Source: Cryomorphaceae bacterium 1068
GTDB lineage: Bacteria; Bacteroidota; Bacteroidia; Flavobacteriales_D; Cryomorphaceae
Assembly: GCA_027214385.1 (NCBI GenBank)
Contig: JAPVXR010000005.1
Coordinates: 124,001-188,000 of the forward strand
DNA: 64,000 nucleotides
Direction: 5' to 3'
Shown here one piece after another: positions 13,828 to 33,979 of the stretch. The notes below the pieces were generated by a model. The model saw only the letters and a program-made list of their open reading frames with translations. It did no database searches and was not told where the DNA came from. The position numbers and the translations under genes are program-made. Each line of letters opens with the position of its first letter. Positions within the stretch are counted from its first letter, which is position 1.

Positions 13828-15104
13828 TTCAATCGCAGGCTTACCGCGTTTTTGTGGGCTTGCAGTCCTTCGGCTTCTGCCAATAGCTCTACCTCTCGAC
13901 CGATATTTTCCAGCCCTTCTCTCGTTACTTCTTGGAAGGTCACTTTCTTCACAAAACTATCCAGCGATACTCCCGAGTAGCTTCTCGCAAAGCCATTTGT
14001 CGGTAAGGTATGGTTTGTTCCACTGGCGTAATCGCCCAAGCTTTCGCAACTCCATTTCCCGATGAAGACGCTCCCAGCCGTTTCTACCATTTCCGCCAGT
14101 TCACGTGCATTTTCGGTGGAGAGGATGAGGTGTTCGGGGGCGTATCGGTTGGAGAAATTCATTGCCTCTTGATCTGATTTCATGATCACTGCCAGACTAT
14201 TTTGAAGTGCCTTACGAGCTACTTCTTGGCGTGGCAAAACTGAAACTTGCGATTCTACTTCTTCGAGAATTCCTCCCAATTTTTCCGAAGCATCACCTCG
14301 TTCTTCGCTCATCACCAAAACCACTTGGCTATCTGCGCCGTGTTCGGCTTGACTCAATAGATCAGCAGCGACAAAAGCCGCATTGCTTTCAGCATTGGCA
14401 ATCACCAAGACTTCGCTTGGACCGGCGGGCATATCGATGGCGGTTCCTTCTTGTTGCACCAGCTGCTTTGCGAGTGTGACAAATCGATTGCCGGGCCCGA
14501 AGATCTTATCCACTTTGGCAACTGTTAATGTTCCGTAAGCCATAGCGGCAATTGCCTGAGCACCTCCCATACGGTAGATTACTTTCAGGTCGAGCTTTCG
14601 CGCAATGTAACGAATGGCCGGGTGAATGGAACCGTCGCGGTTTGGCGGTGTGCAAACGATGATTTCGCGGCAGCCCGCTAGCTTGGCTGGTACACCCAGC
14701 ATCATCAAAGAGGAGAGGAGCGGTGCCGTTCCACCCGGAACGTAGAGTCCGACTTTTTCGATGGGCAGGCTTTTGCGCCAGCAAGTTACTCCTGGTGCAG
14801 TTTCGATCTTCTCGACCTCGTCGGTTTGGGCGCGGTGAAATCGCTCGATATTTTCGATCGCCAAGTTGATCGCTGCTTTCAGATCCTCGCTCAAGTCGTC
14901 TGTATCAGCTTCTAAATTTATTTTGATTCCATCGAGGTCTGCGTCGTCAAATCTGCGGGTGAAATTTAATACAGCAGCATCGCCGCCATTTTTAACCTCG
15001 GCCAGAATCTCCTCTACCGACTCTTTGATTCTGTCGTTTTCAAAATCGGGTCGCTGAATTAGCTCATTCCATTGCTCCTTGGCGGGAAATTTAACCGTTT
15101 TCAT
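13824..15104 (-). CDS. hisD: Histidinol dehydrogenase
   Basis: 426 residues from the ATG at 15104, whose ATGA overlaps the hisG stop; the frame continues to 15128 but the shorter start matches the family and the operon style. Visible signatures: GLYVPGGTAPLLSSLMMLG, FGPGNRFVTLAKQLV, the family signature DMPAGPSEVLVIA, AEHGADSQVVLV with the catalytic His region, RYAPEHLIL and YASGTNHTLPT. It is zinc dependent and oxidises histidinol to histidine by two NAD-linked steps, the end of the pathway. Confidence 0.96.
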   Translation of the reverse strand: MKTVKFPAKEQWNELIQRPDFENDRIKESVEEILAEVKNGGDAAVLNFTRRFDDADLDGIKINLEADTDDLSEDLKAAINLAIENIERFHRAQTDEVEKIETAPGVTCWRKSLPIEKVGLYVPGGTAPLLSSLMMLGVPAKLAGCREIIVCTPPNRDGSIHPAIRYIARKLDLKVIYRMGGAQAIAAMAYGTLTVAKVDKIFGPGNRFVTLAKQLVQQEGTAIDMPAGPSEVLVIANAESNAAFVAADLLSQAEHGADSQVVLVMSEERGDASEKLGGILEEVESQVSVLPRQEVARKALQNSLAVIMKSDQEAMNFSNRYAPEHLILSTENARELAEMVETAGSVFIGKWSCESLGDYASGTNHTLPTNGFARSYSGVSLDSFVKKVTFQEVTREGLENIGREVELLAEAEGLQAHKNAVSLRLK

Positions 15105-15952
15105 AGCACCATTTTTTCGATTGGACATACCAAAACTCCTTCGGCTCCAGCTGTTTTCAATTTATCAATCACTTCCCAGAATTCGTCTTCTTTCACTACC
15201 GAGTGCATACTGCTCCAGCCTTCTTTTGCCAATGGCAAAACCGTCGGACTTTTCATTCCCGGAAGGAGGGAAGAGATCTCACCAAGCGAAGAGTTGGGAG
15301 CATTGAGCAAGATGTACTTGAACTTGTCGGCTTTGTTTACCGCCCTGATTCGAAAGAGTAATTTCTCTACCAATCCGGCTTTCTCAGCGCTGAGATTCTT
15401 GTTTTGAATTAGCACGGCTTCACTTCGGTCTACAGTCTCGACTTCTTTGAGGCCATTCGCCAAGAGCGTACTGCCCGTGCTCACGATGTCGCAAACCGCA
15501 TCGGCCAGCCCGATGCTCGGCGCGATCTCCACGCTTCCGCTGATTTCTTCGATTTCAGCGGTCAGTCCTTTTTCGTCAAGGAAGGTTTTGACGATATTGG
15601 GATAGCTGGTAGCGATCTTTTTACCGTTGAACCAATCGAGTCCCGGATATTCCACTTCTCGTTGAACGGCCATGGAGAGGCGGCATTTGGCAAAACCCAA
15701 GGCCTCGGCCACTTCGACATCTTTCTTCTTTTCTTTAACCACGTTCTCACCCACGATTCCAAGATCGGCGACCCCATCGGCGACGTATTGAGGAATATCG
15801 TCATCTCTCAGGTAAAGTACCTCCAAGGGGAAGTTGGTAGCTTCGCTTCGTAACTTACCGCCGTTGGAAACTTTGATTCCACAATTCTTTAAAAGCTCCA
15901 CACTCTTTTCGCTTAATCTTCCGCCTTTTTGTACCGCAACTTTCAATTTCAT
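15101..15952 (-). CDS. hisG: ATP phosphoribosyltransferase (long form)
   Basis: 283 residues, first structural gene of the operon. The N-terminal catalytic part has KVAVQKGGRLSEKSVELLKN, RDDDIPQYVADGVADLGIVG and KIATSYPNIVKTFLDEKG; ISGSVEIAPSIGLADAVCDI binds PRPP. The C-terminal ~75 residues (from KYILLNAPNSSLGEISSLLP) form the regulatory domain of the long HisG class, so no HisZ partner is required and feedback inhibition by histidine is expected. Its ATG lies 22 bases after an intrinsic terminator that is part of an attenuator. Confidence 0.96.
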   Translation of the reverse strand: MKLKVAVQKGGRLSEKSVELLKNCGIKVSNGGKLRSEATNFPLEVLYLRDDDIPQYVADGVADLGIVGENVVKEKKKDVEVAEALGFAKCRLSMAVQREVEYPGLDWFNGKKIATSYPNIVKTFLDEKGLTAEIEEISGSVEIAPSIGLADAVCDIVSTGSTLLANGLKEVETVDRSEAVLIQNKNLSAEKAGLVEKLLFRIRAVNKADKFKYILLNAPNSSLGEISSLLPGMKSPTVLPLAKEGWSSMHSVVKEDEFWEVIDKLKTAGAEGVLVCPIEKMVL

Positions 15953-15970
15953 TCTTTCGATTTTTATTCA

Positions 15971-16004
15971 ATAAAAAAGCCCCTCCGAATTCGGAGGGGC
16001 TTTT
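15971..16004 (-). terminator. Attenuator terminator of the his operon
   Basis: Read on the minus strand, AAAAGCCCCTCCGAA (16004-15990) is followed by its perfect complement TTCGGAGGGGCTTTT (15989-15975), 15-base arms, then more T residues. This is a strong rho-independent terminator placed between the leader peptide and hisG. A competing pairing with the leader is visible: TCCGAA (16042-16037) with TTCGGA (15989-15984), and GAGG (16034-16031) with CCTC (15997-15994). That pairing would dissolve the terminator stem. Confidence 0.9.
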
Positions 16005-16027
16005 GTTCGTTTATATGCACAACACCA

Positions 16028-16084
16028 CTACCTCTGTTCGGAATCGAAGAGTAAAGTAAAATGATGATGTAAATGTGTTCTCAT
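16028..16084 (-). CDS. hisL: His operon leader peptide
   Basis: 18-codon frame ATG...TAG on the minus strand encoding MRTHLHHHFTLLFDSEQR. Four of the five codons 4-8 are CAT (His), a density expected only of a regulatory leader peptide. The stop lies 24 bases before the attenuator stem. If ribosomes stall at the His codons, codons 15-18 stay free to pair with the terminator and transcription of hisG continues. If histidine is plentiful, the ribosome reaches the stop, covers those codons and the terminator forms. The functional claim is inference from sequence, but the layout is complete. Confidence 0.85.
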   Translation of the reverse strand: MRTHLHHHFTLLFDSEQR

Positions 16085-16094
16085 TATGCGAGTG

Positions 16095-16126
16095 CAAAGT
16101 AATTGCATTTGGTCTTAACCAACAAA
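16095..16126 (-). promoter_or_regulatory. Candidate promoter of the his operon
   Basis: Minus strand: TTTG (16126-16123) and TTACTTTG (16102-16095) are separated by 20 bases. This approximates the Bacteroidota -33 (TTG) and -7 (TAnnTTTG) boxes with one mismatch. Transcription would start about 16090, only a few bases before the leader-peptide ATG at 16084. Confidence 0.5.
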
Positions 16127-16246
16127 TAAAGTTGATGAAGGTTTTGAATCGATCGTTTTTATTATCAATCGTGAAGCATTAGGTGACTTAAATCATCTTT
16201 TTCACTTACGATTTTGTTTAACTTCGAAAGTACCTCAACCAGTGTT

Positions 16247-17059
16247 ATGCAAAAATCTAAAAACCTAACAACGACATTATCGTCGATAATGGGAATTGTC
16301 GTTATCGTCGTATCTCTGATCGCTTCCTACTTTATTTATTTCAATGTTCTCGGACACCCTGACAACTTTGTGGGAGGCGATCCATCAAACGAACCTGTCG
16401 AAGGGAACTACCTTGGTGTGATATACAAGGGAAGTAGTATTGTCATCTTGCAACTTTCCTTCATTATCATTCTGATTACTTATACCGTGGAAAGGGGAAT
16501 CAATTTGGCCCGTGCCAATGGCAAGGGAAAAAACAAAGAGTTTGCTCGCAATATCAAGCTCCTCTTGGGTCGTGGCGATATAGATGCCATTCATGAAGCT
16601 TGCGAAAAGCACAAGGGTTCCGTTGGAAACGTAGTCCGCAAAGGAATCGATTCCTACTTGCAGATTGTCAAGGTCGAGAAACTACGGCCCGAAGAGAAAG
16701 CCTTCCGACTGAAAAGGGAACTCGAAGAAGCGACTCACTTGGAACTACCACATTTGGAACGAAATATGGCCATCATTTCGACCATTGCTTCTGTAGCTAC
16801 TCTGATTGGATTATTAGGTACGGTAACGGGGATGATTCGCGCCTTCAGTGCTTTGGCCCGGGCAGGCTCTTCAGATGCAGTCGGACTTGCAGGTGGTATC
16901 TCACAAGCTTTGGTCACAACGGCTTTGGGGATCAGCACTGCCGCGATAGCTATCGTGGTTTTCAATTTTTACAATACGCTGATTGATCGCATCACTTACG
17001 CGGCAGATGAAACCAATTACGCTCTAATGAGTCGATTTAAAGAAGAAATCGATAGCTGA
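16247..17059 (+). CDS. exbB: ExbB/TolQ/MotA-family proton channel protein
   Basis: 270 residues from the ATG at 16247; the longer frame begins with a TTG at 16214 and adds an unlikely leader. An N-terminal membrane segment (GIVVIVVSLIASYFIYFNVL) is followed by a second (IVILQLSFIIILITYTVERG). The MotA/TolQ/ExbB core is NMAIISTIASVATLIGLLGT with VTGMIRAF, and ALVTTALGISTAAIAIVVFN. It forms the stator channel that uses the proton gradient to energise TonB. It heads exbB-exbD-exbD-tonB and is divergent from the his leader. A TAACTTCG box (16219-16226) could be its -7 element. Confidence 0.92.
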   Translation: MQKSKNLTTTLSSIMGIVVIVVSLIASYFIYFNVLGHPDNFVGGDPSNEPVEGNYLGVIYKGSSIVILQLSFIIILITYTVERGINLARANGKGKNKEFARNIKLLLGRGDIDAIHEACEKHKGSVGNVVRKGIDSYLQIVKVEKLRPEEKAFRLKRELEEATHLELPHLERNMAIISTIASVATLIGLLGTVTGMIRAFSALARAGSSDAVGLAGGISQALVTTALGISTAAIAIVVFNFYNTLIDRITYAADETNYALMSRFKEEIDS

Positions 17060-17661
17060 TGGCAATGATGCGCAACATAAAGACGAAGCCAAAACTCGAC
17101 ATGAATCCGATGGTCGACATGGCTTTTTTGTTGGTAGCTTTTTTTATGATGACTACAACATTTCGCCCTGAGCTACCCGAAGAAGTCCTCATTCCGCCGT
17201 CATCGGCGGAGGTGAAGCTTCCCGAGCGACATTTAGCAACTATCACAATTACCAAGACGGGAGTGGTCTTTTTTGGAATTGACAATAAGTTTGATCGAAG
17301 AGAGCTACTGGGCCGAGTGGGGCGAGAGTTTGGAGTCTTTTTCGACGAAAGTCAATTAAATACCTATTCACTCATAGCTACCGCAGGCGTTCCCGTGGAA
17401 AAGATGGGGGAATTTCTGGATGCAAAGGCAAGCAGAAGGCCATTTGCACAGCAGGGGATTCCATTAACGGAAGACTCTCAATTGTTCTATTGGATTAGGA
17501 ATGCCCGCGCGGTCAATCCCAATTTGCGTTTTGCCATCAATGCCGATGGAGAGACAAAGTATCCCGTGATTCACGAAGTGTTTGAAACACTTCGCGAACT
17601 GGGAGTGACGCGATTCAATTTGGTAACCGAAAAAACGGAAGAAGATGTTACCAAATCTTGA
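17059..17661 (+). CDS. exbD: ExbD/TolR-family protein, first copy
   Basis: 200 residues; ATG overlaps the exbB stop by one base (TGATG). The short cytoplasmic tail leads into LDMNPMVDMAFLLVAFFMMT, the single membrane helix with the proton-binding Asp in PMVDMAF. The periplasmic part (about 42-200) is ~60 residues longer than in the second copy, with an inserted segment around residues 95-130. In Bacteroidota two ExbD proteins commonly follow ExbB and may form a mixed dimer. Confidence 0.93.
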   Translation: MAMMRNIKTKPKLDMNPMVDMAFLLVAFFMMTTTFRPELPEEVLIPPSSAEVKLPERHLATITITKTGVVFFGIDNKFDRRELLGRVGREFGVFFDESQLNTYSLIATAGVPVEKMGEFLDAKASRRPFAQQGIPLTEDSQLFYWIRNARAVNPNLRFAINADGETKYPVIHEVFETLRELGVTRFNLVTEKTEEDVTKS

Positions 17662-18160
17662 AGATATCGATATAGACAAAATCCACGGTCGCGACGACGA
17701 TGCTCGTAAAAAATTGAAGCGGGAAGTCGATGTGGACATGAATCCAATGGTGGATTTGGCTTTTCTCCTTTTGACATTTTTCATGTTGGCAACGACTTTC
17801 AGCAAACCACAGGCAATGGAAATACTCGTTCCGGCCAAAGCAAAAGACACGGCAGAAATCAAGGAGACTCCTGTCAAGGAATCCAAAACAATGAGCTTGG
17901 TTCTAAAGGAGAATGAGATAGTGTGGTACAGAGGGATTACTGAACCTGAAACTTTTGAAATTGACTATCAAGAAAAGGAGCTCCTAAAAATTTTGGCAGA
18001 AGCCAATGCGAATACCACGGATCTTGTGGTGCTGATCAAGCCGCTACCTTCCAACGAATACGCAGACTTGGTGCTGGTGCTAGACGTTTTGAGTTACTCG
18101 GGTGTAGAGCGCTACTCCTTGATCGAGCCTTCTGAATTTGATATGGAAATGGAGGAATAA
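17645..18160 (+). CDS. exbD: ExbD/TolR-family protein, second copy
   Basis: 171 residues, overlapping the first exbD by 17 bases. A charged N-terminus (EDIDIDKIHGRDDDARKKLK) precedes the membrane helix MNPMVDLAFLLLTFFMLATT with its Asp. The periplasmic domain ends in a TolR-like DLVLVLDVLSYSGVERYSLI. It shares the Asp-helix motif with the upstream copy but differs strongly afterwards, so the two are old paralogues rather than a recent duplication. Confidence 0.92.
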   Translation: MLPNLEDIDIDKIHGRDDDARKKLKREVDVDMNPMVDLAFLLLTFFMLATTFSKPQAMEILVPAKAKDTAEIKETPVKESKTMSLVLKENEIVWYRGITEPETFEIDYQEKELLKILAEANANTTDLVVLIKPLPSNEYADLVLVLDVLSYSGVERYSLIEPSEFDMEMEE

Positions 18161-18921
18161 TGGACGCTGCCAAGACATATGGAGCTGAAGAATTGGAACG
18201 GAAATATCCGATGTCTGCCCTTATTTCTTTGGGGATTGCTCTTTTGCTGGTCACGGCTGCAGTGGTTTATCCGCTTATTGTGGATCGGTTAAACCGTAAA
18301 AGCGAAGAGGCCATTTCGGTAAAAGTGAAAAAGGTGATCAACTACTCCGAGCTCAAAGCTCCGCCACCCATCGATTTGGAGAAAGTACAACCACCCGTGT
18401 TAGAGGCAAAGCCAAAGGCCAAAGTGATCAAATACCTACCGCCAAAACCGAAAAAAGATGAAGATGTGATCGATGAGGATATTATCCCAACGATGGACGA
18501 GTTGAGTCAGGATTTTATTGGAACGGAGAATATCGAAGGCTTAGACAGCATTATGATTGACAGTGAGGAGGTAGAGATTGTATCCGAAAAGCCGGAGGAA
18601 GCCGTTGAGGTTTTTGAATTTGTGGAAGTGATGCCCGAATTTATCGGTGGAGTTGAAGCGATGAACACATATTTGAAGGACAATCTGCGTTACCCGTCAA
18701 TGGCGAAGGAGGCCAAGATCCAAGGTCTCGTATACGTCTCTTTTGTAGTGACTGATAAAGGAACTATTGAAGAGATTCAAGTTGTACGAGGAGTCCATCC
18801 CTCATTGGATGAAGAGGCCGTGAGAGTCATTTCAGGCATGCCGCCATGGAAGCCAGGACTTCAAAACAGGCAAAAAGTAAGCGTGCGGTTTACGTTGCCG
18901 ATTAGGTTTGTGTTGAAGTAA
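18160..18921 (+). CDS. tonB: TonB energy transducer
   Basis: 253 residues; ATG overlaps the exbD stop by one base. One N-terminal membrane helix (about 18-42, MSALISLGIALLLVTAAVVY). A Pro/Lys-rich periplasmic spacer follows (KAPPPIDLEKVQPP, KYLPPKPKK), then an acidic linker. The C-terminal TonB domain covers about 155-253 (MPEFIGGVEAMNTYLKDNLR, GLVYVSFVVTDKGTIEEIQV, and SVRFTLPIRF at the end). It transmits ExbB/ExbD energy to TonB-dependent receptors; none of those are in this window. Confidence 0.94.
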   Translation: MDAAKTYGAEELERKYPMSALISLGIALLLVTAAVVYPLIVDRLNRKSEEAISVKVKKVINYSELKAPPPIDLEKVQPPVLEAKPKAKVIKYLPPKPKKDEDVIDEDIIPTMDELSQDFIGTENIEGLDSIMIDSEEVEIVSEKPEEAVEVFEFVEVMPEFIGGVEAMNTYLKDNLRYPSMAKEAKIQGLVYVSFVVTDKGTIEEIQVVRGVHPSLDEEAVRVISGMPPWKPGLQNRQKVSVRFTLPIRFVLK

Positions 18922-33905: not shown

Positions 33906-33979
33906 TGACCGCGCAGGGATTCGAACCCCGAACCTCCGCATCCGTAGTGCGGTGCTCTATCCAGTTAAGCTACGCAGCC
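33906..33979 (-). tRNA. tRNA-Arg (anticodon ACG)
   Basis: 74 bases on the minus strand, read from GGCTGCGTAGCTTAACTGG. Acceptor GGCTGCG pairs with CGCGGTC (two wobble pairs), discriminator A. D-loop AGCTTAACTGGATAGAGC; anticodon stem CCGCA/TGCGG with loop CTACGGA, giving anticodon ACG (read as ICG for CGU/CGC/CGA after deamination). T-arm GGGGTTCGAATCCC. CCA is not encoded. Confidence 0.96.

Follow-up and report, generated by a model that had tools for sequence, protein, structure and literature searches.

A probable histidine-responsive transcription attenuator upstream of hisG in Cryomorphaceae bacterium 1068, with similar leaders in sampled Bacteroidota

What sets the expression of the histidine operon of Cryomorphaceae bacterium 1068? 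A short reading frame rich in His codons and a terminator-like inverted repeat lie just upstream of hisG, and a first-pass annotation of this DNA read the arrangement as an attenuator. The his attenuator of E. coli consists of a short leader with His codons and three helices. Here we analyze the locus within its window (the whole 64-kb stretch of DNA studied) and compare it with hisG upstream regions from related bacteria.

RESULTS

The leader and the his operon

Direct reading of the sequence confirmed the 18-codon frame of the first-pass annotation, which runs on the minus strand from 16084 to 16028 and has four His in codons 4 to 8. The features of the operon and its upstream region are as follows.

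16028..16084, minus strand: leader peptide frame MRTHLHHHFTLLFDSEQR and stop, 18 codons, read from the sequence
16061..16075, minus strand: sensor codons, His 4, 6, 7, and 8 (CAT TTA CAT CAT CAT), from the sequence and shuffles
15975..16004, minus strand: intrinsic terminator, regions 3 and 4, from sequence reading and folding, with a T run to 15973
15101..15952, minus strand: hisG, the first gene of the operon, above the cut-offs of TIGR00070 and TIGR03455
8764..15128, minus strand: hisD, hisC, hisB, hisH, hisA, hisF, and hisIE, each passing the cut-off of one or more NCBIfam models of the same name

The frame begins with ATG at 16084-16082 and ends with TAG at 16030-16028, and all 4 His among its 18 codons are encoded by CAT. 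It is thus a short frame rich in codons for the amino acid that the operon makes. We shuffled the 250 nt before hisG, preserving dinucleotides, and scored frames that started with ATG, were 8 to 60 codons long, and had at least four His within five codons; such frames appeared in 4 of 20,000 shuffles. At least four of any single residue within five codons appeared in 103 of 5,000 shuffles of the same 250 nt.

On the minus strand the order is leader, terminator, and then a complete hisGDCBHAF(IE), so that an intrinsic terminator lies between the leader and the first structural gene. The terminator is a perfect 30-nt inverted repeat, AAAAGCCCCTCCGAA/TTCGGAGGGGCTTTT, at 16004-15975, and the ATG of hisG begins at 15952, 20 nt past the repeat with its T run. 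The first-pass annotation had placed the terminator correctly and followed it with hisG; its distance of 24 bases from the leader stop is 23 nt by our count, and as RNA the element folds into a 13-bp stem with a 4-nt loop. Divergent from the operon, on the plus strand at 16214-18921, is a cluster that begins with a TolQ/ExbB-like protein, which scores below the cut-offs of those models; two ExbD-like frames and a TonB-like protein, named by eye, follow it.

His leaders upstream of hisG in relatives

We searched 60 genomes, including the window's own, and found a hisG match (E ≤ 1e-20) in 17. A relative was credited with a leader if it had a small frame with at least three His in eight codons. 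All 17 hisG-bearing genomes, the window's own included, have such a leader and an intrinsic-terminator-like hairpin before hisG. The weakest cases are L007 and L009, with three His each, and L008, whose frame runs through the terminator owing to two unread bases. L012 and L013 share an identical leader, and the nearest named relative, L020 (Flavobacteriales bacterium), has 82% HisG identity.

The sample was then widened by contigs of named genomes and 90 further loci, 4 of which had no recognizable hisG start. Removing duplicates and partial loci left 175 hisG upstream regions. This sample is not random, since 60 loci were hand-picked, one per genus among the matches listed, and 30 were the best scoring. 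A His-rich leader was found in 147 of the 175 regions, versus 201 of 3,500 shuffles (5.7%), and a leader together with a terminator in 113, versus 5 of 3,500 shuffles. Because only His-rich frames were sought, these values measure enrichment for His and do not rank it against other amino acids. Leaders arising by chance would number about 10 among the 175 regions if the shuffle rate applied; that of L093, a Prevotella-like locus, is probably such a case. Among the 113 regions with both elements, the terminator begins 20 to 76 nt past the last His codon, and in 96 of them the distance is 47 to 59 nt. The His leader before hisG is therefore real and widespread, not a one-off.

The first-pass annotation held that relatives without the His codons would count against attenuation. 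None of the 17 hisG-bearing genomes is of that kind; in the wider sample, 28 of the 175 regions have no His leader. These are mainly Prevotella-like and rumen Bacteroidales loci. No leader was found in any sampled locus of families f25, f29, f36, and f58 (six loci) or in one of the two loci of f40, and two of the 28 leaderless regions, L024 and L049, contain unread bases. The Prevotella-like and rumen Bacteroidales regions without a His leader (L069, L071-L082, L084, L089, and L091) possibly represent loss.

A further 34 of the 175 regions have a leader and no terminator by the criteria used, among them the leaders of Marivirga and family f19, which end FHHSSF or HHFHHSS, and those of family f34, such as HHAHHGHHH. 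These 34 may be translational or Rho-dependent switches, or the terminator rule may have missed their terminators. Seven loci with leaders ending FHHSSF/HHFHHSS and no intrinsic terminator found upstream of hisG (L041, L042, L048, L098, L100, L125, and L150) can, by eye, form a small hairpin, TTCCTC...GAGGAA, from their last codons and stop; control there is possibly translational or Rho dependent. In another group of His leaders with no intrinsic terminator detected (L101, L106, L111-L114, L118, L120-L122, L124, L157, L159, and L160), the stop lies 57 to 81 nt before hisG, and many have repeats of the HHAHHGHHH type.

Folding of the window leader

The 131-nt leader folds more stably than its shuffles (z = −5.19), presumably mostly due to the terminator. 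We folded nascent RNAs of growing length, with ribosome positions masked, for the window, L004, L005, and L066; each locus gave three states, according to whether the ribosome was absent, stalled on a His codon, or at the stop. In addition to the terminator, three segments of the window leader take part in the predicted structures.

16045..16051, minus strand: region 1, CTCTTCG, predicted by folding to pair with CGAACAGAG and form the 5′ side of the inner protector hairpin
16031..16042, minus strand: region 2, antiterminator strand TCCGAACAGAGG, codons 15-18, from mask folding and marginal versus shuffles
16018..16029, minus strand: AGTGGTGTTGTG, outer protector strand, predicted by folding to pair with the His codons without a ribosome

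With no ribosome present, the His codons are predicted to pair with GUGGUGUUGUG directly past the stop, and inside this helix CUCUUCG pairs with CGAACAGAG. The resulting long hairpin holds region 2, and the terminator then forms. The folding thus yields a protector (1:2) hairpin without translation, and the earlier statement of a single competing helix without a pause hairpin of its own was not supported. In the folds with the ribosome stalled at a His codon, the outer protector helix is lost. While only the 5′ arm of the terminator has emerged, the inner 1:2 hairpin remains the most favorable structure (window and L066); once the loop has emerged, the antiterminator is the best fold, in the window at nt 101, where UCCGAA pairs with UUCGGA. 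With the ribosome at the stop codon, the terminator alone is possible.

These results bear on the alternative pairing proposed in the first-pass annotation. Its pairing of TCCGAA (16042-16037) with TTCGGA is indeed in the best structure of the 101-nt stalled nascent RNA; that of GAGG (16034-16031) with CCTC is approximate. Exposure of the antiterminator by a stalled ribosome agrees with the folding, and its covering by a terminating ribosome corresponds to a value of zero that the mask itself imposes.

In the window, the expected number of antiterminator pairs is 10.1 with a stalled ribosome versus 0.06 in free RNA; shuffles give 2.8 (p = 0.05), and the energy of the antiterminator duplex has p = 0.045 versus shuffles. 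The antiterminator is best at nt 101 and is lost to the terminator by nt 104, and it would therefore depend on kinetics. A portion of region 2 pairs with the 3′ arm of the terminator; in the textbook case the partner is the 5′ arm. We rejected the window antiterminator as sole proof of attenuation, with p values of about 0.05 and 0.045 being too weak for that purpose. Because it is marginal and short-lived, the case for the window rests on its relatives.

Antiterminator pairing in relatives

Ribosome-mask folding was applied to 112 of the 113 loci with a leader and a terminator. The median number of expected antiterminator pairs was 11.5 with a stalled ribosome, 1.3 in free RNA, and 0 with the ribosome at the stop codon. 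At least six antiterminator pairs were predicted in 103 of the 112 loci when stalled and in 34 when free. In 109 of the 112, the stalled value was above the mean of the locus's own shuffled tails (overall shuffled mean, 6.9). Taken singly, only 34 of the 112 loci reached p ≤ 0.05 for the antiterminator, and only 9 of 64 reached p ≤ 0.01 for duplex energy. L004, from the same genus as the window, and L005, from the same family, have the antiterminator with other letters; that of L005 is no better than shuffles (p = 0.41) and also forms without a ribosome at intermediate lengths.

In most relatives region 2 is CUCAGGCG or near it, lies in the last codons (ending SQAR before the stop), and pairs with the terminator segment CGUCUGAG. 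In L006 and L022, region 2 is CUCAAGCG and its partner is CGUUUGAG. Pairing was examined in 38 aligned rows, selected for a significant duplex with the fifth segment described below, and partners slid out of register served as controls. Regions 2 and 3 were paired in 292 of 302 cells (slid partners, 37.5 to 48.7%), with changes on both sides at 3 of 8 positions (slid, 0 to 2). Regions 3 and 4 were paired in 320 of 338 cells (slid, 32.0 to 47.8%), with both-side changes at 2 of 9 positions (slid, 0 to 1). Both-side changes of the kind expected from the terminator-antiterminator covariation that the first-pass annotation had suggested looking for are present in these rows. For regions 1 and 2, 164 of 185 cells were paired (slid, 38.4 to 53.5%); both-side changes, at 1 of 5 positions, fell within the slid range (0 to 3), and that count is uninformative for the 1:2 helix. 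Taken together, the sequences of the relatives appear to give good support to a mutually exclusive antiterminator.

We considered whether this could be a leader RNA with a terminator at which read-through is governed by a factor other than stalling at His codons, such as a leaky constitutive terminator, a protein, or the general coupling of translation to transcription. The marginal window antiterminator would fit, as would the 34 of 147 leader-bearing relatives without an intrinsic terminator by the criteria used. It is nevertheless very unlikely, given antiterminator changes on both sides at 3 of 8 positions and His-rich frames in 147 of 175 loci versus 5.7% of shuffles, although the latter is an enrichment only.

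Slightly less likely still is that the His-rich frame encodes a small functional peptide, for example a metal binder, and that the terminator merely ends its transcript. Clusters of three to seven His could bind metal, and we counted this capacity in favor of the peptide. However, apart from its His codons, the peptide either varies or tracks the RNA helix. The frames of L059 and L061 stop early, with an intact CTCAGGCGAG directly after the stop, so region 2 is conserved as RNA and not as peptide. In L031 the stop falls inside a slightly altered region 2. That 147 of 175 loci have a His-rich leader at this position, before hisG, also argues against a free-standing peptide.

Promoter and 5′ end of the leader RNA

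The −7 promoter consensus of the Bacteroidetes is TAnnTTTG, and in the Bacteroidota transcription starts a few nucleotides downstream of the −7 box. Two candidate elements precede the window leader.

16120..16126, minus strand: weakly supported candidate −33 element TTTGTTG, from sequence reading
16095..16102, minus strand: candidate −7 box TTACTTTG, one mismatch to TAnnTTTG, 10 nt 5′ of the leader ATG

The TTTG at 16126-16123 precedes the candidate −7 box by 20 nt. Among 111 leaders of the family, 74 have an exact TAnnTTTG 2 to 28 nt upstream of the leader start, versus 2.5% of shuffles. The distance from box to start peaks near 18 nt, and a second group of 18 of the 74 has it at 4 to 10 nt; L004 (7 nt) and L005 (9 nt) belong to this group. 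If transcription starts a few nucleotides past the inexact box of the window, its leader mRNA would have about 7 nt before the AUG. The suggestion that this mRNA is nearly leaderless is thus plausible in view of the 18 exact-box leaders, with the window's own box being inexact.

A fifth segment in relatives

Where the spacer after the U tract is long (at least 26 nt), the relatives often have in it a stretch complementary to the 5′ arm and loop of the terminator. This segment 5 was scored at p ≤ 0.01 versus shuffles and was found in 40 of 70 long-spacer loci, of which L006, L010, L019, L034, L066, L139, and L145 are examples, and in none of 41 short-spacer his leaders; L014 and L130 were left out of the scoring for having too little spacer. 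In 39 of the 40 loci its end is 11 to 18 nt upstream of the hisG start, and in L137 it is 31 nt upstream. The window, L004, and L005 are without segment 5, in the window because the spacer is too short. Such complements as a general feature of terminators were rejected, there being none after 29 other terminators (window and loci L021-L095).

The terminator loop bases pair with segment 5 in 171 of 186 cells (91.9%; slid partners, 35.5 to 50.3%), with both sides changed at 4 of the 5 positions (slid, 2 to 3) and 14 further pair types (slid, 6 to 8). The percentage paired is clearly above the slid controls; the both-side changes and pair types are only moderately so. When partners were swapped among loci, the average duplex energy went from −24.2 kcal/mol for the cognate to −18.6 kcal/mol for the swapped partners, no swapped partner did better than the cognate in 17 of 40 loci, and the fraction of loop bases paired went from 0.92 to 0.73. 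The good pairing of swapped partners weakens the case for segment 5. Replacement of the terminator hairpin by segment 5 at equilibrium was rejected: in finished read-through RNAs, region 3 prefers segment 5 in only 5 of the 40 loci, and the terminator hairpin prevails in the other 35. From the alignments, segment 5 seems to change together with the loop, a coupling that a terminator by itself would not require in order to function.

Comparison with known RNA families

No described Rfam family matched the window element at its gathering score, and all matches in permissive scans were below threshold. For RF00514 (His_leader; gathering score, 49), the window reached just 18.5 bits, on the opposite strand; over the nine loci scanned, among them L003, which is the window's own copy, L038 reached 33.6 bits and L027 reached 31.9 bits, both below 49. 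The two matches, at 2353-2453 in L038 and 1539-1642 in L027, are full length. Matches in the window to Phe_leader (31 bits) and Thr_leader (24.2 bits), versus gathering scores of 55, look like generic attenuator shape and were set aside. A tRNA-binding T-box or a metabolite riboswitch has almost no likelihood: his genes are under His T-boxes in Firmicutes, according to PMC9413887, but no Rfam family reached its gathering score here (the sole such match in the window is a tRNA at 33906-33979), and no T-box was among the 31 matches of a permissive Rfam scan of 15900-16250.

For Bacteroid-trp RNA (RF01692; gathering score, 49 bits), which PMC2864571 lists, there was no match in the window or, under stricter filters, in the window's own genome. 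Three loci (L186, L187, and L188) carry Trp attenuators of this kind, one leader being MKNLKLNNYWWWSTKHNVS; only L186 is above the gathering score. These are from the same phylum as the window element and likewise have an amino-acid-rich leader (in this case Trp), followed by a hairpin resembling a terminator and by the start of a gene; they differ from it in amino acid, operon, and sequence.

DISCUSSION

We put the probability at roughly 0.9 that hisGDCBHAF(IE) is controlled by a ribosome-mediated transcription attenuator that responds to how much charged tRNA-His is available. The same parts recur in relatives in the same order and with similar spacing while their sequences change. The first-pass annotation had this as its core reading, and it gained support from the comparison with relatives, from pairing kept through sequence change, and from the mask folding, whose alternative structures are computed predictions.

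We propose that with ample histidine, a ribosome translating the leader would pass the four His codons, reach the stop, and cover region 2, so that the 3:4 terminator forms and transcription ends before hisG. With too little charged tRNA-His, the ribosome would stall at codons 4 to 8 and remove the outer helix, formed by the His codons and GUGGUG. The inner 1:2 hairpin would then be transient, replaced by a helix between region 2 and the terminator sequence as it emerges, and RNA polymerase would continue into hisG. If the leader is not translated, the outer and inner protector helices would sequester region 2 and the terminator would form. At this locus, then, the leader is probably translated, with stalling that would raise expression of the operon.

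The window element works like the enteric his attenuator, but by score it is outside both RF00514 and Bacteroid-trp. The attenuator of E. coli, Salmonella, and their relatives (RF00514; PMC9413887) likewise lies immediately upstream of hisG and has His codons in a short leader, along with protector, antiterminator, and terminator helices. The window leader differs from it in having 4 His in 18 codons and a Bacteroidetes-type promoter box. Firmicutes also have His leader peptides, upstream of hisZ/hisS* in PMC2965389 and of his operons in PMC9413887; they share with the window element runs of His codons and a terminator and, in PMC9413887, an antiterminator. They are from another phylum, and we liken them to the window leader by their descriptions. 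PMC2965389 finds no similarity between its Firmicutes leaders and those known from Proteobacteria and states (in 2010) that its authors knew of no leader peptide system, ermC apart, shown outside the Proteobacteria and Actinobacteria before their Firmicutes case. The first-pass remark that His leaders are best known from Proteobacteria is fair as history; yet they are common in the sampled Bacteroidota, and an element from the Flavobacteriaceae is in print.

That element was found in Flavobacterium psychrophilum. PMC9723704 reports a structured element 5′ of hisG, common to other Flavobacteriaceae and without an Rfam match, and strong clues for leader-peptide attenuation before amino acid operons in this species. 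Its position and lack of an Rfam family are those of the window element; the His leader and helices are not spelled out in the section that reports it. The general finding is therefore partly in print. The main text of PMC8305728, on the his genes of this superphylum, lacks the word "leader" and mentions attenuation once, for enteric bacteria. In the literature that we searched, we found the hisG 5′ element of Flavobacteriaceae and no description of the phylum-wide extent of His leaders or of segment 5; an earlier description is possible, with Lopatovskaya 2010 a likely place for earlier Bacteroidota attenuators.

We think it rather more likely than not that many of the sampled Bacteroidota his attenuators have a fifth segment, changing along with the terminator loop, that acts as a read-through lock or a second layer of control. 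As a lock, segment 5 would nucleate on the free loop as it emerges from the polymerase, displace the antiterminator, and block the terminator from re-forming. As a second layer, it would act on hisG translation in cis or, in a trans form, the released terminated leader RNA would pair just upstream of the hisG start. Either way of working, if true, would take the attenuator beyond the four segments of the textbook design.

These results suggest that histidine biosynthesis in much of the Bacteroidota, a phylum whose regulation has been studied less than that of the Proteobacteria, is run by ribosome-mediated attenuation. Since the parts keep their roles while their letters change, the phylum is a natural series for the evolution of attenuators, containing loci that have a terminator, loci in which none was detected, loci with a fifth segment, and loci that lack a leader altogether.
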